Source of the DNA: Patescibacteria group bacterium
GTDB taxonomy: Bacteria > Patescibacteria > Microgenomatia > Levybacterales > UBA12049
DNA length: 51,521 bases
Direction of reading: 5' to 3'
Assembly (NCBI GenBank): GCA_023379465.1
Contig: JAMCTM010000007.1
Coordinates: forward strand, 1-51,521
A program made the position numbers and the translations under genes. Below the pieces are notes generated by a model, which saw only the letters and a program-made list of their open reading frames with translations, was not told the DNA's origin and ran no database searches. Shown piece after piece: positions 3,997 through 45,925 of the stretch (position 1 is its first letter; each line of letters starts with the position of its first letter).

Positions 3997-5076
3997 TCAC
4001 TTTCCTACCATTATAACCTCTTCCACCAGCCGGTTGGCATATCCCCACTCGTTATCATACCAGGCGACAATCTTAGCCAAATTACCGCCAACCACTTTTG
4101 TTAAAGAGAGATCCGCGATTGAGGAATGGGAATTGCCTACTATATCGGATGAAACAAGCGGGTCCTCCGTTACCGCGAATATGCCTTTGTAAACAGGATT
4201 TTCCGCTTCTTTTTTTAAAACTCCATTGACCTCATCGGCAGTGGTCTCTTTTTTCAAAAGAAAGGTAAAATCCGACAATGAGCCAACTGCCACGGGAACC
4301 CTAATTGATAATCCGGCAAAGATGCCTGCTAATTCCGGCACCGCTTCGGACGCGGCAATGGTTGCGCCGGTTGATGTGGGAATAATATTTTGAGCAGCCG
4401 ATCTTGCCCTTCTGTAATCTTTGTGCCCCCCATCCTGGAGTCTCTGATCCGAAGTGTATCCGTGAATAGTGGTCATCATCGCCTTTTCAACGCCAAAATG
4501 ATCAACCATGATTTTGGCAACAGGGGCTATGCAATTGGTTGTGCAGGAGGCATTGTTTATCAGGGCCTCGCCCTGATATTTTTCATCGTTGACCGACAGA
4601 ACATAGGTTGTTACGTTGCCGCCTTTAACCGGTGCGGACAAAACAACCTTTTTGGCCCCGGCTTCAAGATGAAGCTTTAACTTATCCTCTGTTCTGAAAT
4701 GCCCGGTTGATTCAATAACCACGTCCACCCCCAAATCCTGCCAGGGCAGAAGACTCGGATCCTTCTGGGAAAAAACAGGAATCTCTTTTTCATCAATAAT
4801 TAAACTCCCAATATAATCGTCTCTATTTTGAACATTTGGAATTTGTCCGCCTGAATTTGATTTGAGATTTGAAATTTGAGATTTGAAATTTAAGGCATGA
4901 TTCTGAAGCATGCCATATGAAGAATCATATTCAAGAAGATACATCCAGCCTTTAATATCGGTTGAGGAACCGGCGTTGATGGCAACCACCTCTATTTCGG
5001 ATAGATGTTTTTCCAGAATCACCCGATGCGCTACCCTTCCGATTCTTCCGTAACCATTAATCGCCGCCCTTATCAT
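3997..5076 (-). CDS. gap: glyceraldehyde-3-phosphate dehydrogenase, type I
   Basis: Oxidises and phosphorylates glyceraldehyde 3-phosphate with NAD(P). The N-terminal dinucleotide fold is INGYGRIGR (residues 7-15), the catalytic cysteine sits in ASCTTNCIAPVAK, and the C-terminal WYDNEWGYANRLV is canonical. At 359 residues it is about 20-25 longer than usual. The excess is a hydrophilic insertion at about residues 62-84, after DSSYGMLQN, encoded by 7-bp repeats (4827-4892). The strand continues normally afterwards (YIGSLIIDEKEIPVF), so the frame is kept. It has its own promoter ending 6 nt before the ATG, which predicts a leaderless mRNA, and lies downstream of pgk. Confidence 0.97.
   Translation of the reverse strand: MIRAAINGYGRIGRVAHRVILEKHLSEIEVVAINAGSSTDIKGWMYLLEYDSSYGMLQNHALNFKSQISNLKSNSGGQIPNVQNRDDYIGSLIIDEKEIPVFSQKDPSLLPWQDLGVDVVIESTGHFRTEDKLKLHLEAGAKKVVLSAPVKGGNVTTYVLSVNDEKYQGEALINNASCTTNCIAPVAKIMVDHFGVEKAMMTTIHGYTSDQRLQDGGHKDYRRARSAAQNIIPTSTGATIAASEAVPELAGIFAGLSIRVPVAVGSLSDFTFLLKKETTADEVNGVLKKEAENPVYKGIFAVTEDPLVSSDIVGNSHSSIADLSLTKVVGGNLAKIVAWYDNEWGYANRLVEEVIMVGK
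4827..4892. repeat. 7-bp repeat insert inside gap (ATTTGAA/ATTTGAG units)
   Basis: The right part (4867-4892) is ATTTGAA, ATTTGAG, ATTTGAA, ATTTA in register. Degenerate TTTGAA, TTTGGAA and TTTGATTTGAG units extend left to 4827. In the gap frame the tract encodes K/S/N/Q-rich residues. The other strand would hit TGA in every frame. Confidence 0.85.
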
Positions 5077-5140: not shown

Positions 5141-6301
5141 TTATTTTACAAGGGCCGCAAGTCCCGGCAGTTTTTCGCCCGATAGAAATGAAAGCATTGC
5201 GCCCCCTCCGGTTGAGACAAAATTAAATTTATCAATCAAGCCGATTTTTCTCAAAAACTCTGTTGTGTCCCCGCCGCCGACTACTGAATAAGCACTGCCC
5301 TTGATAACCGCCTCGGCGATTCTCCGCGAGGCATGATTCAAATCGTCTTCATCCAACTTTTGACTTTTGACTTTTGACTTTTGACTTATCTTTCCCATTG
5401 TTCCATTCCAAACAACTGTTTTCGCCCGATCAATAACCTCGATAAAATTTACAATGCTGTTTTCCAAAATCCCTGTCCCCTCGGGGTTTAAATCGGCAAC
5501 CAAAAGAAGGGCATTTGCTTTACTCTTTTGATGCTCGAGCCGGATAAAGGTCTTCGACTCCTCGGCTATTTTCCCTCCAACCAAAACATAATCCGCCAGG
5601 CCGTACATTTTTATAACCAAAGGAAGTTTGGTTTCTATCTTTTTCCCGCCGATAACAACAGCCAGCGGTCTTTGGGGATTTTTAATAACCGAGTCTAAAC
5701 GCGAAACCTCCTCTTCCAAATGAAAACCGGCAAAACAGGGCAGAAGTTTCGGCACACCGACTATCGAAGCATGAACCCTATGACAAACCGAAAACGCGTC
5801 GTTCACATAAATATCCGCCAGGCCTGCCAGTTTTTTGGCAAAATCAGGGTCATTCTCTTCCTCTCCTCTATAAAATCTTAGATTCTCAAGCAAAAATAGC
5901 CGAGTACCAATCTCCCAGCCAGCAAACTCTCCCAATTTCTTAAATCTTAAATCATAAACCTTAAATCTATCCGCCAACCACTTTGCCACCGGCTCCAAAC
6001 TAAACTGTTTATTTTCTCTGGACATTTGAAATTTGATATTCTTGTCCTGAGCTTGTCGAATGGATGATATTTGATATTCCGGGCGCGGTCGTCCGAGATG
6101 CCCTCCGATAATAACCTTTGTCTTATTCCCAAGAAGAAAGTTTAAAGTTTCCAGTCCCGCTTTAAGCCTCGCATCGTCCTCTATTTTGTACTTTTGACTT
6201 TTTACTTTTGACTTTTGACTTATCATTGGTACATCCAGATCCAACCTTAAAAAAACCGTCTTTCCTTTAACATCGGCTCTTTTAGCAACAGGCAAATTCA
6301 T
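5141..6301 (-). CDS. pgk: phosphoglycerate kinase with three repeat-encoded inserts
   Basis: Transfers phosphate from 1,3-bisphosphoglycerate to ADP. Family marks are VFLRLDLDVPM, GGHLGRP, YVNDAFSVCHRVHAS, WNGTMG, VVGGGDTTEF and STGGGAMLSFLSG. Three hydrophilic inserts interrupt otherwise alignable sequence: residues about 27-39 (SQKSKVKSQK), about 75-97 (heptamers around a REP-like core encoding IRQAQDKN), and about 305-316 (SQKSKVKSQK again). All keep frame and fall in loops between conserved blocks. The gene starts 1 nt after the toxin stop (TAATATG), so it appears to be read from the toxin-antitoxin promoter or by translational coupling. Confidence 0.96.
   Translation of the reverse strand: MNLPVAKRADVKGKTVFLRLDLDVPMISQKSKVKSQKYKIEDDARLKAGLETLNFLLGNKTKVIIGGHLGRPRPEYQISSIRQAQDKNIKFQMSRENKQFSLEPVAKWLADRFKVYDLRFKKLGEFAGWEIGTRLFLLENLRFYRGEEENDPDFAKKLAGLADIYVNDAFSVCHRVHASIVGVPKLLPCFAGFHLEEEVSRLDSVIKNPQRPLAVVIGGKKIETKLPLVIKMYGLADYVLVGGKIAEESKTFIRLEHQKSKANALLLVADLNPEGTGILENSIVNFIEVIDRAKTVVWNGTMGKISQKSKVKSQKLDEDDLNHASRRIAEAVIKGSAYSVVGGGDTTEFLRKIGLIDKFNFVSTGGGAMLSFLSGEKLPGLAALVK
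5356..5388. repeat. four perfect ACTTTTG heptamers inside pgk (C-terminal domain)
   Basis: Exact units occupy 5356-5362, 5363-5369, 5370-5376 and 5377-5383, ending in ACTTATC. The minus strand reads S-K-V-K-S-Q-K per 21 bp and is open in all frames. Confidence 0.95.
6022..6079. repeat. REP-like core flanked by 11-bp direct repeats inside pgk
   Basis: The core contains TCCTGAGCTTGTCGAA (6045-6060). It is bracketed by an 11-bp direct repeat ATTTGATATTC at 6031-6041 and 6069-6079, which looks like a duplicated target or heptamer-derived flank. More TTTGAA-type units lie at 6022-6030. The pgk frame stays open across it. Confidence 0.8.
6190..6222. repeat. heptamer array inside pgk (N-terminal domain)
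   Basis: Units are ACTTTTG (6190-6196), ACTTTTT (6197-6203), ACTTTTG (6204-6210) and ACTTTTG (6211-6217), ending in ACTTATC as in the other pgk array. Both arrays therefore begin with the same junction on the coding strand. Confidence 0.93.
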
Positions 6302-6302
6302 A

Positions 6303-6704
6303 TTAGTTTCTTAACTTTTCAGGGTCAAATAAACGAAGACCGGGAATTTTAGCAAAATCTTTTTTATTGTTGGTCGCTAACTTAGCATTAAGATAGATTG
6401 CGGTTGAGGCGATAATCAAATCCGCCAGACTTGCCCCTGATGTATACATCTTTCGTCGTAAAATCATACCTAAAATATAGGCAATCTCTTCATTTAAGTC
6501 TTGTGTTTGAAACCATGATAGATACTTTTTTGACTCCTTTTCACCCAGCTCTGTTTCCGCTTTCTTATCGTTGAGATACTCTGCAATAACAATCGTTGGC
6601 ACCACTAATCTTACATCCTCTAATTGAAGAAAAAGCTTAACCCACGGAGCAAAACCATATATATTATCAATAAGAATATCCGTATCTAAAACAATTATCT
6701 TCAC
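6303..6704 (-). CDS. VapC-like PIN-domain toxin
   Basis: A 133-residue PIN domain. IIVLDTDILIDNI carries the first acidic pair (D7, D9), a mid Glu lies in VIAEYLND, and the third acidic cluster is in SLADLIIASTAI. The segment LATNNKKDFAKIPGL is typical of the VapC C-terminus. Such toxins are Mg-dependent RNases. The GTG start (6704) overlaps the antitoxin stop (GTGA). The stop lies 1 nt before the pgk start, an unusual position for a toxin. Family call strong; target RNA unknown. Confidence 0.88.
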   Translation of the reverse strand: MKIIVLDTDILIDNIYGFAPWVKLFLQLEDVRLVVPTIVIAEYLNDKKAETELGEKESKKYLSWFQTQDLNEEIAYILGMILRRKMYTSGASLADLIIASTAIYLNAKLATNNKKDFAKIPGLRLFDPEKLRN

Positions 6705-6997
6705 GTAATTATACCTTTGGAGAGATTTTCAAGATATTTACGTTCTTTTTTCTTCCAGGCGGGAGCATCAAGCACCGACCAATATTTTCTCTTCTTGTAT
6801 TTGCCAAAAACTCTCCGTAACTTAGCCAGCGTCTCCTCTATTTCTTCTGCTGTTGGCCTTTTTCGCGCTTCCGGAATAATTCTCACGCTTCCCGCATGTT
6901 CTTTTTCCACAATAAACTCCTCGCCTTTAAAAATAACAGCGTTGAGAATCTCAAAAAAATTATTCCTTGCCTTGGTTGCGGAGATGATATTTTTCAT
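6701..6997 (-). CDS. Phd/YefM-type antitoxin
   Basis: A 98-residue protein. The N-terminal MKNIISATKARNNFFEILNAV is the Phd/YefM DNA-binding module, followed by GEEFIVEKEHAGSVRIIP. The basic C-terminal half (KRKYWSVLDAPAWKKKERKYL) would wrap the PIN toxin. It heads the operon antitoxin-toxin-pgk. The promoter holds a TGTACA-TTA-TGTACA inverted repeat between -35 and -10, a plausible autoregulatory operator (inference). Confidence 0.85.
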   Translation of the reverse strand: MKNIISATKARNNFFEILNAVIFKGEEFIVEKEHAGSVRIIPEARKRPTAEEIEETLAKLRRVFGKYKKRKYWSVLDAPAWKKKERKYLENLSKGIIT

Positions 6998-8171: not shown

Positions 8172-10334
8172 ATGAAAAAGATCCTCAAGGGACATCAACG
8201 GGTCTTCGGATTAATAGCAAGATATTGGCCAGTTCTAAGCATTCTGGTTGTTTTAATAGGGCTTTTTTATTACTATATCCTTTCGGATCTTCCCTCCCCA
8301 ACCAAACTGGCAAGTCAAAATATTTCTCAGTCAACTGAAATTTTTGATCGAAACGGAAAGCTTCTTTACACCATTTACGCTCAAAAAAACCAAACCTTTA
8401 TTCCTTTATCCGAAATTCCCAAAAGCCTCCAGGAAGCAACCATTGCCATCGAAGACAAAGACTTTTACCACCATGGGGCAATAGATCTCAAAGGCATATT
8501 AAGAGCAGCCTTTGCCATAATCTTCCATCATCAGATACAGGGAGGATCAACCCTTACCCAGCAATTAGTCAAAAACTCGCTGCTTAATCCCCAGCAGACC
8601 ATCGTGAGAAAATTAAGAGAAATAATTCTCTCATTTGTAACCGAGGCCCTTTATTCTAAAAATAAAATTCTTGAGATGTATCTTAACCAGATCCCCTATG
8701 GCGGGACAGCCTGGGGAATAGAAGCGGCGTCAGAGACTTATTTCGGCGAACACGCCAAGAATTTAGATTTGGCACAGTCCGCCCTGCTGGCAGGACTGCC
8801 GGAGGCGCCAAGTGCATTTTCTCCTTTTGGCTCTCATCCTGAACTGGCGAAGGCAAGACAGGAAGAGGTGCTTAAAAAAATGTATGAACAGCATTATATC
8901 AGCAAAAACCAGATGCAAAAAGCGGAGGAAGAAAAACTTAACTATAAATCCTTGGGGAATAACATTAAGGCTCCCCATTTTGTTCTTTACGTAAAAGATC
9001 TTTTGGTAAAAAAGTACGGGGAAAGAATGGTTGAGGAGGGAGGGTTAAAAGTAACAACCTCTCTTGATTTATCTATTCAGGACTTTGCCCAAAAAGAGGT
9101 AGCAAACCAAATTGCCCATCTCAAAGGATATCATGTTACAAACGGAGCCGCCCTGGTAACCGATCCCGCAACAGGCGAAATCCTGGCCATGGTCGGTTCA
9201 AGGAATTATTTTGATAGAAAAATAGACGGCAATGTCAACGTAACCCTTGCCCGCAGACAGCCTGGTTCGTCAATTAAGCCCATCAACTACGCCGTGGGGC
9301 TTTTGAACGGATATACCGCGGCAACCCCGTTCGTGGATGAACCCATCTGTTTTCCAAATCCCGGACGCGCGTCTTACTGCCCCGGCAACTACGATCATAA
9401 ATGGCATGGGGTTGTTCAAATGCGTTTTGCCCTTGCCAACTCTATTAATATTCCGGCTGTAAAAATGCTTAAACTAAATGGGGTTAAGGCAATGATTGCC
9501 ACCGCATCTGCCATGGGAATAACCACGTTCACCAATCCTAACCGATACGGCCTCTCGCTTACCCTGGGAGGCGCGGAAGTAACCATGCTCGATATGGCCA
9601 CGGCCTATGGTGTTTTTGCCAACGAAGGCTACAGGGTTAATTTGCATCCTGTCTTAAAAGTTATGGATTCAAAAGGAAACATCCTTCAGCAGTATAATCC
9701 GCCCCAAAGTCCGATTTTCGGCAAAAAGATTTTAACATCCGGGGTTGCCTATATCATCTCAAACATTTTAGCCGATAATAACGCCAGATCCATGGAATTC
9801 GGCACCAATTCTCCGCTTTTCATACCGGGGCACACCGTTTCGGTCAAAACCGGCACCACCAATGATTTTCGCGATAATTGGACAATCGGCTATACTCCAA
9901 AATACGTAGTTGCGGTTTGGGTGGGCAATGACGACGATTCGCCAATGCAGGGACTGGTCTCCGGTATAACAGGGGCAGCGCCTATCTGGCACGGCATTAT
10001 GGCGCATCTGTTAGACGACAGGCCATCGGAAAGCTTAGCCCGCCCGGGAGACATCGTACAGAAAAAAATCTGCGCTACATCCGGACTTCTGCCCCCGCCG
10101 CCCGGTACACCAAACCGCTGTCCGACAAGATTTGAATATTTTATAAAAGGAACGGAGCCAAAAACCATTGATCCCGGAGCGCAAAAGGTTTGGATTGATA
10201 AAACAACCAATGACCTGGCAAAACCGGGACAAACAAATAATCTTGAACTGAAAGATGAAATCGTTGTCCAGGATCCTACCGGAGACAGGTTTTGCCTTAC
10301 CTGCCCCCACCCCACGCCTACCCCGCAACCCTAA
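8172..10334 (+). CDS. class A penicillin-binding protein (PBP1A-like), copy 1
   Basis: A bifunctional peptidoglycan glycosyltransferase and transpeptidase of 720 aa. A membrane anchor (about residues 18-40) is followed by the GT51 domain with EDKDFYHHGAIDLKG (catalytic Glu) and GGSTLTQQLVKN. The transpeptidase has SSIKP (SxxK), SIN (SxN) and KTGT (KTG). The short C-terminal tail is rich in Pro, Thr and Gln. It is followed 73 bp later by a paralogue and shares DNA tracts with it (41 identical bp at 9939-9979), pointing to gene conversion. It acts outside the cytoplasmic membrane in wall synthesis. Confidence 0.95.
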   Translation: MKKILKGHQRVFGLIARYWPVLSILVVLIGLFYYYILSDLPSPTKLASQNISQSTEIFDRNGKLLYTIYAQKNQTFIPLSEIPKSLQEATIAIEDKDFYHHGAIDLKGILRAAFAIIFHHQIQGGSTLTQQLVKNSLLNPQQTIVRKLREIILSFVTEALYSKNKILEMYLNQIPYGGTAWGIEAASETYFGEHAKNLDLAQSALLAGLPEAPSAFSPFGSHPELAKARQEEVLKKMYEQHYISKNQMQKAEEEKLNYKSLGNNIKAPHFVLYVKDLLVKKYGERMVEEGGLKVTTSLDLSIQDFAQKEVANQIAHLKGYHVTNGAALVTDPATGEILAMVGSRNYFDRKIDGNVNVTLARRQPGSSIKPINYAVGLLNGYTAATPFVDEPICFPNPGRASYCPGNYDHKWHGVVQMRFALANSINIPAVKMLKLNGVKAMIATASAMGITTFTNPNRYGLSLTLGGAEVTMLDMATAYGVFANEGYRVNLHPVLKVMDSKGNILQQYNPPQSPIFGKKILTSGVAYIISNILADNNARSMEFGTNSPLFIPGHTVSVKTGTTNDFRDNWTIGYTPKYVVAVWVGNDDDSPMQGLVSGITGAAPIWHGIMAHLLDDRPSESLARPGDIVQKKICATSGLLPPPPGTPNRCPTRFEYFIKGTEPKTIDPGAQKVWIDKTTNDLAKPGQTNNLELKDEIVVQDPTGDRFCLTCPHPTPTPQP
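9939..9979 (+). repeat. 41-bp tract identical to PBP copy 2
   Basis: Identical to 12469-12509, with one further mismatch in the next 12 bases. It lies just after the KTG motif. Silent positions elsewhere differ freely between the paralogues. Confidence 0.85.
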
Positions 10335-10407
10335 AATCAACCTTTCTATTTAATCTTGCCTATAGTATAATAGGCTTATTCCCTGCCTCTTTTTAGATCT
10401 TAAAGCT

Positions 10408-12687
10408 ATGTCTGATATTCTATTTTTGGTCGTTAAAATTCTTACGGCTATAGGAGATGCCGTAATTTTTATAGCGGGCTTTTTTATAAAAAAAATAATC
10501 GGGGTGTTCAAGATGCTCTTAAAATTCACAAAAGCAACCCTTGGCAGCCTCCGGAATTTGGCAGGCATAATCTCTCAAAAACTACCGGCAAATATAGCCT
10601 TAAACATCAAAAAGAAATTGTCCAAACCGTTTCCCAAAAAGCGGCTTAGAAAAAAGCGGGAAATCTATAGCTTAAAAAAAGCCGCCCGGTCTTTTAGCTT
10701 TATCGCTAAGCTTAGGTATTTCATCTTGGGTTTTCTGTTTTCTTTCCTGTTCATATTTATTCCACTCTTATCCCTTATCTTTATCCAAGAGCTTCCCAGT
10801 CCGAGAAGCCTTTCCTTAAGACAAATTCCCCAAACAACCAAAATCTACGACCGAAACGGAATTCTTTTGTATCAGATTTACGCTAATCAAAACAGAACCC
10901 TTGTGCCTCTAAGCGTAATTCCGGCCTATCTTAAGCAGGCAACGATTGCCATTGAGGATAAAAATTTTTACCATAACCCGGGGGTTGATTTCGCGGCCAT
11001 CATAAGGGCTGCCATAAATGACCTGGAGGGAAAAAGCCTGGAAGGAGGATCAACCCTTACCCAGCAATTAATAAAATCTTCCCTTTTAACGCCTAAAACC
11101 AATATGATGAGAAAAATAAAAGAAGCGATACTGGCTTTATGGGCGGAAAAAATATACACCAAGAATCAAATACTTGAAATGTACTTTAATCAGATTCCGT
11201 ACGGAGGAACTGCTTGGGGGGTTCAGGCCGCGGCGCAAACCTATTTCGGCAAAAATGTAAAAGATTTAGATCTTGCCCAATCTGCTTTCTTAGCCGGCAT
11301 GCCAAGGGCGCCAACCTTATACTCGCCCTTCGGACAAACGCCAACGCTTTGGAAGAGACGCCAAAAAGAGGTGCTCGACAGAATGGCTGCCCTAAAATAC
11401 ATAACCAAACAGCAGGAAAAAAAAGCGCTTTCGGAAAAGCTGACATTTAGGCAGCCGGAAAACCCGATACGCGCTCCGCACTTCTCCATGTACATCAAGG
11501 ACCTTCTGATAAAAAAGTATGGTCTGCCAATGGTTGAGAAAGGAGGATTAAAGGTTGTTACAAGCCTTGATCTTAAACTGCAGGACAAGGCACAGGAAAT
11601 TGTTTCAAAGGAGGTTGCCAAAGATAATTACCTAAATCTCACTAACGGCGCTGCACTTATTACGAATCCCGAAAATGGTGATATTCTGGCAATGGTGGGA
11701 AGCCATGATTATAACGACCCAAACGGGGGGCAGGTAAATGTTACCACCTCTTTCAGACAGCCGGGCTCCTCCATAAAAGCGGTCATGTATTCAGCGGCTC
11801 TTTCCGACGGATTTACCGCGGCTACCATCCTTAACGACTCGCCGGTTACCTATTTTTCTCCCGGAGCGCCTCCCTACTCCCCTGTTAATTATGATCACAG
11901 GTTCCACGGAAAGGTTTCCTTAAGAATAGCATTCGCTAATTCCTTTAACGTGCCCGCTGTTAAAACGCTAAACCGAATCGGCATTCCTGCCATGGTTGCC
12001 ATGGCCAAAAAAATGGGCATCAAAAGCTGGGGGAATCCTAAACAATACGGTCTGTCTCTAACCCTTGGCGCCGCGGATGTTACCATGCTTGATATGGCAA
12101 ATGTCTACGATACCCTGGCTAACCAAGGCGTAAGGGTGAGTCTTAATCCGCTTCTTAAGGTAACGGATGCCAGAGGCGATGTTTTGGAAGAAAAGGCTGC
12201 GGGTAAGTTCTCCAACAAGACCTGGCCGTGGGCGCAAAATCAAAATCCGGGAAAACGCGTGCTTGATCCGGGGGTTGCCTTTATCATCTCTAATATTCTG
12301 GCTGATAATAACGCCAGATCCGAAGAATTTGGATTAAACTCTCCCCTTTTTATTCCAGGACACACCGTTTCGGTTAAAACCGGCACATCGGATAACATAA
12401 GGGACAACTGGACAATCGGCTATACCCCTAACTGGGTTGTAACAGTCTGGGTGGGAAATGATAACAACTCGCCAATGCAGGGACTGGTCTCCGGTATAAC
12501 AGGGGCAGCACCTATCTGGCATAGCATTATGGCCTATCTGCTGAATATTAAACCGGAAAAACCCATTCCCGTCCCGTCCGATGTAATAGAAAAGCCTTGT
12601 CTTGGCAGAATGGAATATTTTATCAGGGGAACGGAAAATTCCGTCAACTGCGCCTATATCGCTCCGACCCCAAGCCCACAAAAGTAA
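10408..12687 (+). CDS. class A penicillin-binding protein (PBP1A-like), copy 2
   Basis: A tandem paralogue of the upstream gene, 759 aa, with a longer N-terminus. An amphipathic/hydrophobic segment (residues ~5-45) and a basic stretch (KKKLSKPFPKKRLRKKRE) precede the main anchor at about 105-130. GT51 motifs are EDKNFYHNPGVDF and GGSTLTQQLIKS. Transpeptidase motifs are SSIKA (SxxK), SFN (SxN) and KTGTS (KTG). Both active sites look intact. A TATAAT at 10366 suggests it can be transcribed separately. The extra N-terminal segment may alter membrane placement or partner choice (inference). Confidence 0.94.
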   Translation: MSDILFLVVKILTAIGDAVIFIAGFFIKKIIGVFKMLLKFTKATLGSLRNLAGIISQKLPANIALNIKKKLSKPFPKKRLRKKREIYSLKKAARSFSFIAKLRYFILGFLFSFLFIFIPLLSLIFIQELPSPRSLSLRQIPQTTKIYDRNGILLYQIYANQNRTLVPLSVIPAYLKQATIAIEDKNFYHNPGVDFAAIIRAAINDLEGKSLEGGSTLTQQLIKSSLLTPKTNMMRKIKEAILALWAEKIYTKNQILEMYFNQIPYGGTAWGVQAAAQTYFGKNVKDLDLAQSAFLAGMPRAPTLYSPFGQTPTLWKRRQKEVLDRMAALKYITKQQEKKALSEKLTFRQPENPIRAPHFSMYIKDLLIKKYGLPMVEKGGLKVVTSLDLKLQDKAQEIVSKEVAKDNYLNLTNGAALITNPENGDILAMVGSHDYNDPNGGQVNVTTSFRQPGSSIKAVMYSAALSDGFTAATILNDSPVTYFSPGAPPYSPVNYDHRFHGKVSLRIAFANSFNVPAVKTLNRIGIPAMVAMAKKMGIKSWGNPKQYGLSLTLGAADVTMLDMANVYDTLANQGVRVSLNPLLKVTDARGDVLEEKAAGKFSNKTWPWAQNQNPGKRVLDPGVAFIISNILADNNARSEEFGLNSPLFIPGHTVSVKTGTSDNIRDNWTIGYTPNWVVTVWVGNDNNSPMQGLVSGITGAAPIWHSIMAYLLNIKPEKPIPVPSDVIEKPCLGRMEYFIRGTENSVNCAYIAPTPSPQK
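12469..12509 (+). repeat. 41-bp tract identical to PBP copy 1
   Basis: Counterpart of 9939-9979. A second 27-bp identical tract links 8541-8567 and 11044-11070 around the GGSTLTQQL motif. Confidence 0.85.
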
Positions 12688-13329: not shown

Positions 13330-13443
13330 CAAATTCAAAATGCAAAACTACAATTCAAAAGCAAAAAGTTAGGATTTGTGCATTTTTAAACTTTTGACTT
13401 TTTACTCGAAATTTTGACTTTTAAATTTTAACTTTTGACTTTC
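13330..13443. repeat. heptamer-rich region between rpe and rpiB, running into rpiB
   Basis: Left part reads in AATTCAAAA/GCAAAAAGT orientation (13334-13370). Right part is in ACTTTTGACTTTTTAC and ATTTTGACTTTT orientation (13390-13443), giving an imperfect inverted arrangement. The right arm crosses the rpiB stop at 13402 and encodes its last ~12 residues. Confidence 0.75.
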
Positions 13444-40944: not shown

Positions 40945-41427
40945 TTAATTTTCCGTATACCTTTTTGTAAAGGAATGGGTAACAGCAACGGCCAGGGCAT
41001 CGGTAATATCATCGAGTTTAGGAATCTCTTTCAATTTCAATAAAACCTTTACCATTTGTCCTATCTGGCTCTTCTCTGCTCGGCCATAGCCTGTTATCGC
41101 CATTTTTACCTGTAAGGGAGTATAAACAAAAACAGGCAGGCTATTTTGCCCTGCCGCCAAAAGCACCACCCCCCTTGCCTGTCCCACCATAAACGCCGTT
41201 TTCGCGTTGGTGTTAAAAAATAATTCCTCAATTGCCAAAACATCCGGCTTGTATTTCCGAATAATCTGCGTCATTTCTTCGTAAAGAATCGCCAGGCGTT
41301 TCTCGATAGCTAGACTGCTGGAGGTTTCTATGCAGTCAAACATTTGACATTTGACATTTGACATTTGACATTTGATTACCCCCCAGCCTGTCCTGCCAAT
41401 TCCGGGATCTATTCCTAAAATAGTCAT
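40945..41427 (-). CDS. ruvC: Holliday junction resolvase RuvC with repeat-encoded hairpin
   Basis: 160 residues. Acidic residues are D7 in GIDPGIGRTGWG, the Glu of AIEELFF and the two Asp of LDDITDALAVA. K/R contacts lie in GYGRAEKSQIGQM. After GWGVI, residues about 19-29 (KCQMSNVKCQM) are encoded by five exact 7-bp repeats and sit where other RuvC proteins have a beta-hairpin turn before Y/D-x-G-x-I-E-T. So the repeats replaced or extended an exposed loop without breaking the frame. Start overlaps the rplY promoter region on the other strand. Confidence 0.95.
   Translation of the reverse strand: MTILGIDPGIGRTGWGVIKCQMSNVKCQMFDCIETSSSLAIEKRLAILYEEMTQIIRKYKPDVLAIEELFFNTNAKTAFMVGQARGVVLLAAGQNSLPVFVYTPLQVKMAITGYGRAEKSQIGQMVKVLLKLKEIPKLDDITDALAVAVTHSFTKRYTEN
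41340..41374. repeat. five perfect ACATTTG heptamers inside ruvC
   Basis: Exact units at 41340-41346, 41347-41353, 41354-41360, 41361-41367 and 41368-41374. The minus strand is open in all three frames and encodes K-C-Q-M-S-N-V per 21 bp. Confidence 0.96.
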
Positions 41428-43825: not shown

Positions 43826-45925
43826 TCAACGCGGCCATCTACTAATCATTATTGAATCCCCTCCGCCGAGTCTTTGATAAATCTCCTCTGTTACAAAAGG
43901 CATAAAAGGATGCAAGAGCTTAAGAAGAATTATAAATAAAGAATTAAGAATCAAGAATGAATTTTTATCCATTCTGTTTTTAACGTCTTCTATATAAATA
44001 TCCGCAAACTGATGCCAGACAAATTCATATATGGCCTCTGCGGCAAGGTTGAACTGGTAACGGTCTATATTTTGGGTAACTTTTTTTGTCAGCTCCTGTA
44101 CTTTTTTAATCATTAGCTTATCGCTTTCGTGTTGAGCAAGATTTTTTAACTCCTCAATTGTTAAATAACTATCTGATTCCTGATTCATCTTTATAAACCG
44201 CGCTATATTCCAAATCTTATTTGTAAACCTTCTCCCTGCCTCAAGCTTTGGATAAGACAAAGACTGATCATTGCCTGTTGCGTTGCCATATATAAGCGCA
44301 AAGCGAACGCTGTCCGCTCCGTATTGATCAATTAGATCCATTGGATTAACCACGTTACCTTTGCTTTTGCTCATTTTTTTGCCGTAGGGATCATTTACCA
44401 AACCGTGCAAAACTATATTTTTAAAGGGGACTTTCCCTGTTTCATATATCCCAATCATTGCCATTCTGGCAACCCACCACCGTAAGATGTCATAGCCGGT
44501 TTCCATAACTGATGTTGGATAGAATTTTTCAAAATCACCGGGTTTAGCCGTCTTCAGTGCGGCATATGGCCACTGGGCTGACGAAAACCAAGTATCAAAC
44601 GTATCGCTGTCTTGATGAATATTCCCGGAGCGACACTCAGGGCAAGTCTTTGGCCGCACGCCTTCTGTTACTGTCCACTTTCCGCATTCAAAACACTGCC
44701 ATGCCGGAATTCTTATGCCCCAAACAATCTGCCGTGATATATTCCAATCCCTGATGTTCTCCAAAAAATCAAAATAAACTTTTTCAAACCGTTTAGGATC
44801 AATTTTTATTTTGCCCTCTTTAGCAGCCGCGATCGCCGGTTTCGCCAACTCCTCCATTTTGATAAACCACTGCGGCAAAAGCATGGGCTCAATTGTTGTT
44901 CCACATTTATAACAGGCTTCAATTACATGGGTATAATTCTCGTCAATTTTCTCAACCAGTCCCATCTCTTGCATATCCTGTGCAACTTTTTTTCTGGCTT
45001 CTTTAACATATAATCCTTTATACCTTCCTGCTTTTTCGTTGAGTTTTCCGTCGAATCCGATTACTTGAATAAGTTCCAAATTATGCCTTCTGCCTATCTC
45101 AAAATCTTTCACATCGTGGGCAGGCGTAACCTTGGCAACGCCTGTTCCAAACAAAGGATCTATCAGCCCATCCGCAATTACCTTCATTTTGAATGTCCCA
45201 AGCAGTCCTTTAACCTCAATTTCTTTTCCAACCCATTTTGCATACCTTTTATCTTTCGGATTTACGGCAACAGCCGTATCGCCAAATTTTGTTTCGGGCC
45301 TAACTGTTGCCAAAACAAAAGGCCCGTATCTTAAATAATAAAGGGGGTCTCTTTGCTCTTTATGATTAATTTCAAGGTCAGAAAAAGAGGTCCCGCAACG
45401 CGTGCAGTAATTAACAAGCCTGTCTCCCCGATAAATGTAACCTTCATCATAAAGCCTCTTAAACGTTTTATAAACAATCTTTACGATATCCTTATCCAGG
45501 GTAAATTTTTTTCTGCTCCAGTCCAAGGAGAAACCTAAGCGCCGAAGTTGATTTTCCATCCCCTTTCTGTTTTCCTGAACATATTCCCAAATCATTCTAT
45601 ACGATGTCTCCCGATCAAAATCAAAACGCGACTTCCCCTCTTTAGCCAGTTTTTTCTCAAAAACAAACTGGGTTTCAAATCCGGCATGATCCGCTCCGGG
45701 CAGCCACAGTACCCTATCCCCCTTCATCCGGTGATAACGAACAAGAATATCCTCAATTGTGTACATTGCGTGTCCAAAATGAAGCGGCGCGTTGGCGTTA
45801 GGAGGAGGCAGAATTATGCAGTACGGTTCTCCTTTGAGGTTTGTCTCCGGCTTAAAATATCCGCTTTTTTCCCATCCTTTATATATTTTTTCCTCAACTT
45901 CTTTATGGTTATAGACCTTATCCAC
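43826..45925 (-). CDS. valS: valyl-tRNA synthetase
   Basis: 699 residues, a short ValRS. PPPNANAPLHFGHAMYTIEDIL carries the HIGH motif as HFGH, the editing domain includes ATVRPETKFGDTAVAV, a zinc site is CYKCGTT and CFECGKW..CPEC, and KMSKSKGNVV is the KMSKS loop. The C-terminal coiled coil of E. coli ValRS is missing. The GTG start lies 6 nt after a good -10, so a leaderless mRNA with GTG is expected. Confidence 0.96.
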   Translation of the reverse strand: MDKVYNHKEVEEKIYKGWEKSGYFKPETNLKGEPYCIILPPPNANAPLHFGHAMYTIEDILVRYHRMKGDRVLWLPGADHAGFETQFVFEKKLAKEGKSRFDFDRETSYRMIWEYVQENRKGMENQLRRLGFSLDWSRKKFTLDKDIVKIVYKTFKRLYDEGYIYRGDRLVNYCTRCGTSFSDLEINHKEQRDPLYYLRYGPFVLATVRPETKFGDTAVAVNPKDKRYAKWVGKEIEVKGLLGTFKMKVIADGLIDPLFGTGVAKVTPAHDVKDFEIGRRHNLELIQVIGFDGKLNEKAGRYKGLYVKEARKKVAQDMQEMGLVEKIDENYTHVIEACYKCGTTIEPMLLPQWFIKMEELAKPAIAAAKEGKIKIDPKRFEKVYFDFLENIRDWNISRQIVWGIRIPAWQCFECGKWTVTEGVRPKTCPECRSGNIHQDSDTFDTWFSSAQWPYAALKTAKPGDFEKFYPTSVMETGYDILRWWVARMAMIGIYETGKVPFKNIVLHGLVNDPYGKKMSKSKGNVVNPMDLIDQYGADSVRFALIYGNATGNDQSLSYPKLEAGRRFTNKIWNIARFIKMNQESDSYLTIEELKNLAQHESDKLMIKKVQELTKKVTQNIDRYQFNLAAEAIYEFVWHQFADIYIEDVKNRMDKNSFLILNSLFIILLKLLHPFMPFVTEEIYQRLGGGDSIMISRWPR

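Follow-up and report, generated by a model that had tools for sequence, protein, structure and literature searches.

Heptanucleotide tandem arrays in core enzyme genes of Patescibacteria: shared sites with changing repeat words

Rickettsia palindromic elements are in-frame additions to conserved genes, in which the peptide they encode is retained; their units are longer and palindromic and belong to few families, each set of copies representing one family. Long heptanucleotide simple sequence repeats (SSRs) are found in many genomes, heptamers being the commonest long unit, and slippage has been proposed as their cause (Mrazek et al., 2007, via PMC4679880 and PMC4692102; these and the other papers given by PMC number are drawn on in part). 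Patescibacteria are not among the groups named in connection with such repeats in the parts of PMC4679880 and PMC4692102 drawn on here.

Heptamer arrays in the window and across genomes

The window (the whole stretch of DNA analysed, 51,521 nt) contains arrays of 7-bp units within genes of its minus strand. A period-7 scan together with TRF confirmed the arrays that an earlier note had described in pgk (three places), gap, ruvC and at the 3' end of rpiB, and an array at 43934–43962 in a class I tRNA-ligase gene, probably valS, had been missed; the heptamer observation was right, and the phenomenon is larger than the earlier reader saw. Pfam matches identified PGK, GAPDH, RuvC, RpiB and a class I tRNA ligase with an anticodon-binding domain, and the named relatives near the top of the GAPDH and RuvC match lists were records of Ca. 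Levybacteria and Patescibacteria. The features are as follows.

4856..4894, minus strand: gap array of CTCAAAT/TTCAAAT units, coding for LNFKSQISNLKS in a loop of variable length
5350..5393, minus strand: pgk site 4, AGTCAAA-type array (TRF 4.6 copies, 100% match), coding for KISQKSKVKSQKLD
5937..5968, minus strand: pgk site 3, AGATTTA-type array found as a period-7 run, coding for RFKVYDLRFK
6020..6080, minus strand: pgk site 2, AATATCA-like heptamers broken by a REP-like piece, read from the sequence
6041..6064, minus strand: REP-like palindromic piece of 24 bp inside the heptamers of pgk site 2, coding for SIRQAQDK
6182..6227, minus strand: pgk site 1, AGTCAAA-type array (TRF 5.3 copies), coding for MISQKSKVKSQKYKI
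13412..13442, minus strand: imperfect AAAAGTC-type array at the rpiB 3' end, coding for a C-terminal tail
41335..41379, minus strand: ruvC array of AAATGTC units (TRF 5.1 copies), coding for KCQMSNVKCQM in a hairpin of usual length
43934..43962, minus strand: TTCTTAA-like array in the class I tRNA-ligase gene (probably valS), coding for SFLILNSLF in the anticodon-binding domain

The array at pgk site 2 is interrupted and was therefore missed by the period-7 scan. At the window's edge (27–80), TRF marked an imperfect ACTTTTG array of about eight units, apparently outside the listed minus-strand ORFs of at least 80 aa. Beside pgk, two small adjacent ORFs (6303–6997, minus strand) look by eye like a VapBC-like pair of PIN-domain toxin and antitoxin, and two similar large tandem ORFs on the plus strand (8172–12687) look by eye like class A penicillin-binding proteins.

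Among tandem periods, 7 (with 14) alone is common in the window: scanning periods 4–21 gave seven runs at 7, six at 14, two at 11, one at 21 and none at the rest, and one first-order Markov resample contained no period-7 run. Period 7 yielded 7–30 runs where other periods yielded few, and 872 kb around ruvC held 59 period-7 runs against at most 14 for any period other than 7 and 14. Synonymous recoding with the window's codon usage (5000 draws) matched the periodicity of the arrays in 0 to 0.2% of draws, and each of the seven genic arrays exceeded the recoding of its own peptide (p<=0.002). As recoding rarely attains this periodicity, the repeat is a feature of the DNA and not a shadow of the peptide.

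A 7-bp unit stepped by 3 presents the identical seven codons in all frames, giving a peptide period of seven residues, and because 7 and 3 have no common factor, a stop-free array encodes one heptapeptide repeat in every frame. If the length of a unit is not a multiple of 3, its frames are either all open or all stopped, so that the openness in all frames and the seven-residue period to which the earlier note had drawn attention, while true, are arithmetic necessity and no special property; MacGregor made the same frame and stop argument for TAACTGA repeats (PMC4679880). Since a stop on the coding strand of a long array would end the protein, the proposed rule that arrays lie in the stop-free orientation is forced. 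For the consensus units in the window it holds in six of seven, the coding strand being the open one, but the consensus unit of pgk 5937–5968 has a stop on both strands, and that array is open because its units differ among themselves.

In the window and 18 sampled genomes taken together, 62 of 133 arrays lay within crude ORFs. Thirty-seven of these had a unit with a single open strand, which was the coding strand in 29 and the opposite one in 8, the latter being readable because real units deviate from the consensus; 10 more were open on both strands and 15 on neither. ORF calling itself needs an open frame, so the count of 29 against 8 is no independent test. Arrays are depleted in ORFs: crude ORFs contain 5.7 per 100 kb and the remaining DNA 70, a density 12-fold higher. 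The strong enrichment outside ORFs would suit a regulatory role for the arrays, or one as binding sites at the DNA or RNA level, that would preserve them in genes too, by analogy with the proposal for TAACTGA upstream of start codons in Beggiatoaceae (PMC4679880); the words, however, vary between arrays and between genomes, and we consider such a role highly unlikely.

Of the order's 82 genomes, 67 contained four consecutive TCAANNN units, as did 123 of 379 genomes drawn over the phylum. A scan of genome contigs with PGK had returned 17 distant loci only, at 30–35% identity, one of which, from a Berkelbacteria genome, formed the centre of this phylum-wide search. The number of overlapping TCAANNN x4 matches, hereafter the heptamer index, does not count distinct arrays and misses words without TCAA, and its backward-pattern control is imperfect, since other heptamers can fit the reversed pattern. 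Among the 82 genomes, triple words were present for AAAAGTC in 24, AAAATTC in 26, AAAGTTC in 22, AGTTGTC in 1 and ACAGTTC in 2, the same words read backward giving 1, 4, 0, 0 and 0 hits, respectively. Among the 18 genomes sampled, at 20–274 kb each, period-7 arrays were absent from 8 and reached 30 per 100 kb in the densest. Many different units are present in each genome (133 arrays, window and 18 genomes); a mixture fit found the shared motif TYAAWWN (5.04 bits, against 3.55–3.85 for random 7-mers of the same genomes), which may partly reflect base composition, and TAACTGA was absent from the 60 commonest units of the 133 arrays.

Loops of PGK, GAPDH and RuvC among relatives

The arrays of pgk were compared with 120 PGK homologues, of which 60 were aligned and 45 inspected in the alignment. 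Insertions recur at shared places, but their heptapeptides differ (QKSKVKSQ, KLETRNSKLET, SEVRSQKSEVR, RNPKSEIR and HNSSFIIHNSS are examples), and the gap loop is likewise a site common to relatives that bears other heptapeptide words. The earlier note had posed a choice between strain-specific and conserved inserts, and they are neither: the sites are common to relatives, but the unit turns over.

Loop lengths were measured over the 120 PGK and 120 GAPDH homologues. At pgk site 1, 43 proteins had length 7, 11 had 8, 7 had 14 and 43 had 15, the main step being 8, and at site 2, 63 had length 7 and 23 had 14. Site 4 showed paired lengths of 13/20 (31 and 13 proteins), 14/21 (11 and 9) and 16/23 (28 and 10); the gap loop had length 22 in 34 proteins, 28 in 15 and 36 in 23. 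With the four loops summed, pairwise length differences over lags 1–21 were most frequent at lag 7 (3698 pairs), with a second peak at lag 14 (981 pairs against 449 at 13 and 342 at 15). Single loops differ, site 1 peaking at 8, site 4 at 3 with 7 second beyond lags 1–3, and the gap loop having 14, 6 and 1 all ahead of 7. Two of three control segments were invariant in length and the third was variable without a peak at 7. Steps near seven residues (21 bp, three units) are thus real overall and not a strict rule.

The placement on structures for which the earlier note had called was obtained for PGK with an AlphaFold2 model and 1php, and for RuvC with 1hjr. The model of the window PGK (63 sequences, mean pLDDT 88, pTM 0.87) resembles solved PGKs, 1php best. 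For site 1 it predicts a hairpin of two strands (residues 26–30 and 36–40), site 2 lies in a region modelled at low confidence (residues 71–100, average pLDDT 49–57), site 3 overlaps a predicted strand (118–123) and site 4 is predicted to be disordered (pLDDT under 50); by eye, the arrays do not touch the invariant residues of PGK. In-frame insertion, which had been claimed for the arrays in general, describes pgk sites 1 and 4, which add 9 and 11 residues, respectively, relative to 1php, but not ruvC.

The array region of the window ruvC aligned without a gap to E. coli RuvC (1hjr), and the stretch from GWG to CIET had one length in 110 of 120 RuvC homologues (7 had other values and 3 were unmatched by the expression). 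A native hairpin whose length is fixed has been overwritten by about five heptamers, with nothing inserted. A RuvC match was present in 77 of the 82 genomes of the order; with two contig-edge fragments omitted, the hairpin was read in 76 sequences, those of 75 genomes plus that of the window, and all but one, which contains Ns, were classified, giving 75. Hairpins were called periodic at a codon-shuffle p<=0.01 and a lag-7 identity of at least 0.5 that exceeded the other lags tested, which applied to 38 of the 75, the window included; in a smaller set, 24 of 28 ruvC sequences had a codon-shuffle p<=0.01.

The ruvC word differs from genome to genome at this constant length, within a shared register of roughly AAARTTC. 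Units of two genomes were 0.53 identical at the same position and 0.51 at different positions, compared with 0.78 within one genome; because the 35 hairpins compared were chosen for periodicity, the value of 0.78 is partly due to this choice, whereas the comparison of 0.53 with 0.51 is free of it. Two genomes that are starred sisters on the genome tree, G381 and G382 (RuvC 89% and coding DNA 78% identical), carry AGTTGTC and AAAACTC, respectively, and the close pair G433/G434 keeps its hairpin (85% identical). On this tree, which is weak (7 of 73 inner branches starred), the periodic label requires at least 19 changes, compared with an average of 25.4 for shuffled labels (2 of 200 at or under 19), and ruvC periodicity is inherited but labile. 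It is weakly related to the heptamer index of the genome (Spearman 0.34, p 0.003).

Selection on the peptide, by which the hairpin would favour a seven-residue pattern and the DNA repeat would follow, might be read from the non-periodic hairpins of array-poor genomes, which have a similar pattern (for example, EVxGSKxKAxxYG). Since synonymous recoding seldom attains the observed periodicity (p<=0.002) and arrays are denser outside ORFs, we regard this as very unlikely.

Possible origins of the arrays

The reading we prefer, and hold to be somewhat more probable than its negation, is that these are heptanucleotide tandem arrays of a known bacterial class, dense in the Patescibacteria order around Ca. 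Levybacteria, which change by slippage and are tolerated in loops. Strand slippage, offered as a cause in the earlier note, is possible, and as the motor it would give rise to arrays and lengthen them mostly outside genes. Within genes only frame-keeping net changes would survive, namely, gains or losses of about 21 bp (7 residues) or replacements of the same length. Only a handful of loops and hairpins, in pgk, gap and ruvC, would tolerate the arrays; sequence may matter little there and the peptides would be near-neutral, and a genic array would evolve in concert, the word turning over in every unit without a change of site, register or unit number. For a heptamer repeat of five units in S. 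pombe, changes of +7 or -14 arise at about 7e-6 (PMC5427490); if rates were similar here, even an essential gene could bear an array at little cost.

Turnover of whole words would need repeated homogenisation or exchange between arrays, and whole-word replacement between sister genomes is easier by exchange than by slippage. Genic arrays might accordingly be overwritten from arrays of the same genome through ectopic conversion or copying, with preferred words spreading. Unit sharing was 3.0% between arrays of the same genome and 1.2% between those of different genomes (permutation mean 1.5%, 0 of 500), the AGTTGTC triple confined to G381 among the 82 genomes lies in ruvC and once elsewhere, and arrays of the ruvC word elsewhere in its own genome numbered 12 over 8 genomes against 4.0 at random (p 0.039). 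However, shuffling labels among the 8 genomes gave p 0.10, 4 of the 8 had no other array of their own ruvC word, and shared base composition and kinship could produce the same pattern. The evidence for exchange between arrays is suggestive but weak, and we consider this origin unlikely. It is more doubtful still that a copying process rewrites arrays from a genome-wide pool of words, core enzymes included, retyping hairpins with length and register unchanged, its activity perhaps tracking MutS loss and Y1 transposase load.

Across the 82 genomes, MutS absence and the number of Y1 transposase hits both go with a higher heptamer index. The MutS_V cut-off was passed by 10 genomes, 9 of which were counted as bearing full-length MutS after G405 was dropped (two weak matches in a 1203-aa ORF). 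Their heptamer indices were 0, 0, 0, 0, 0, 0, 1, 2 and 7, compared with a median of 7 and nine zeros in the other 73 (Fisher p 0.0009, kinship ignored; kinship pairs were too few). Speaking against a link, a periodic ruvC hairpin was found in 4 of the 9 and in 34 of 66 other sequences, and in S. pombe 7-nt loops are not repaired by MutS-alpha (PMC5427490). The tie between MutS absence and heptamer load is a lead only.

A Y1 (RAYT-type) transposase hit was present in 49 of the 82 genomes, and the number of hits tracked the heptamer index (Spearman 0.51, p 1.2e-6, kinship ignored), kinship-aware pairs giving 1.4 with and 0.1 against, too few to weigh. The 12-base core of the REP-like piece in pgk occurred 12 times in 2.16 Mb and 0 times in one Markov shuffle; a literature text search with this core returned nothing relevant by title. 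REP-like palindromes were also seen nested in the ruvC heptamers of five genomes (G390, G386, G408, G406 and G415) and at the same hairpin in a sixth (G403); they differ in sequence and lie in frame, mid-array or at the ruvC hairpin, as if these were landing sites.

The index correlation, the nested palindromes and the in-frame insertions within conserved genes could point to a mobile element resembling the Rickettsia palindromic element, its body formed by the heptamers. Against this, there are many words per genome, the ruvC array is not an insertion, and 0 arrays lay within 250 bp of 20 Y1 genes, around which density was at background (5 in 68.5 kb, or 7.3 per 100 kb, compared with 6.8 around ruvC), making such an element extremely unlikely. 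The earlier proposal of a replicating element of this kind is not supported, given many units per genome and different units at orthologous sites, and it was rejected for the heptamers themselves; the REP-like piece nested at 6041–6064 in pgk does, to a small extent, justify the likeness drawn to palindromic elements.

The RuvC hairpin in 76 sequences is a natural series separating a repeat-DNA process from protein constraint. The arrays bear on how conserved enzymes gain loop sequence in steps near seven residues, on what makes 7 bp a preferred unit length in bacterial repeats and on which repair functions restrain them. For annotation, heptapeptide stretches such as SQKSKVK should be taken as repeat DNA and not as motifs.

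Comparison with described repeats

Compared with Rickettsia palindromic elements, the repeats described here are short direct 7-bp units of many words, and in-frame insertion of that type was seen at pgk sites 1 and 4 relative to 1php and not in ruvC. RAYT-type REP elements sit beside a transposase gene, whereas the heptamer arrays do not (20 Y1 genes). Borg tandem repeats resemble them in that genic repeats are kept as peptide repeats, but Borg in-ORF units are all divisible by three, as opposed to 7 bp here (PMC9879509). The GGGAATC and GGGGA(C/T)T repeats of Xanthomonas and Nostoc and the tandem heptanucleotides of Calothrix form heptameric arrays that are over-represented in non-coding DNA, as here; the Xanthomonas and Nostoc heptamers are G-rich, with quadruplexes proposed, while the present arrays are A+T-rich (PMC4692102).

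The TAACTGA repeats of Beggiatoaceae, Cyanobacteria and Bacteroidetes share more features: they are 7-bp and mostly intergenic, one strand has stops in all frames and the open strand is read as a heptapeptide in some ORFs (PMC4679880). They differ in that one word recurs across genomes, in place of many words per genome, and in that their in-ORF cases are mostly at protein ends, whereas the arrays here are also found within PGK, GAPDH and RuvC (PMC4679880). A search of the literature on Patescibacteria or CPR and repeats, covering mostly papers outside subscription, gave no such description by title or start of abstract. With the long heptanucleotide SSRs the arrays share direct tandem 7-bp units, here above chance and above other unit lengths, and over-representation outside coding DNA. 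They differ from them in lying within core enzymes, at shared sites, with word turnover at constant length. What is new is that, in core enzymes of Patescibacteria, the repeat word turns over while its site and length stay fixed.
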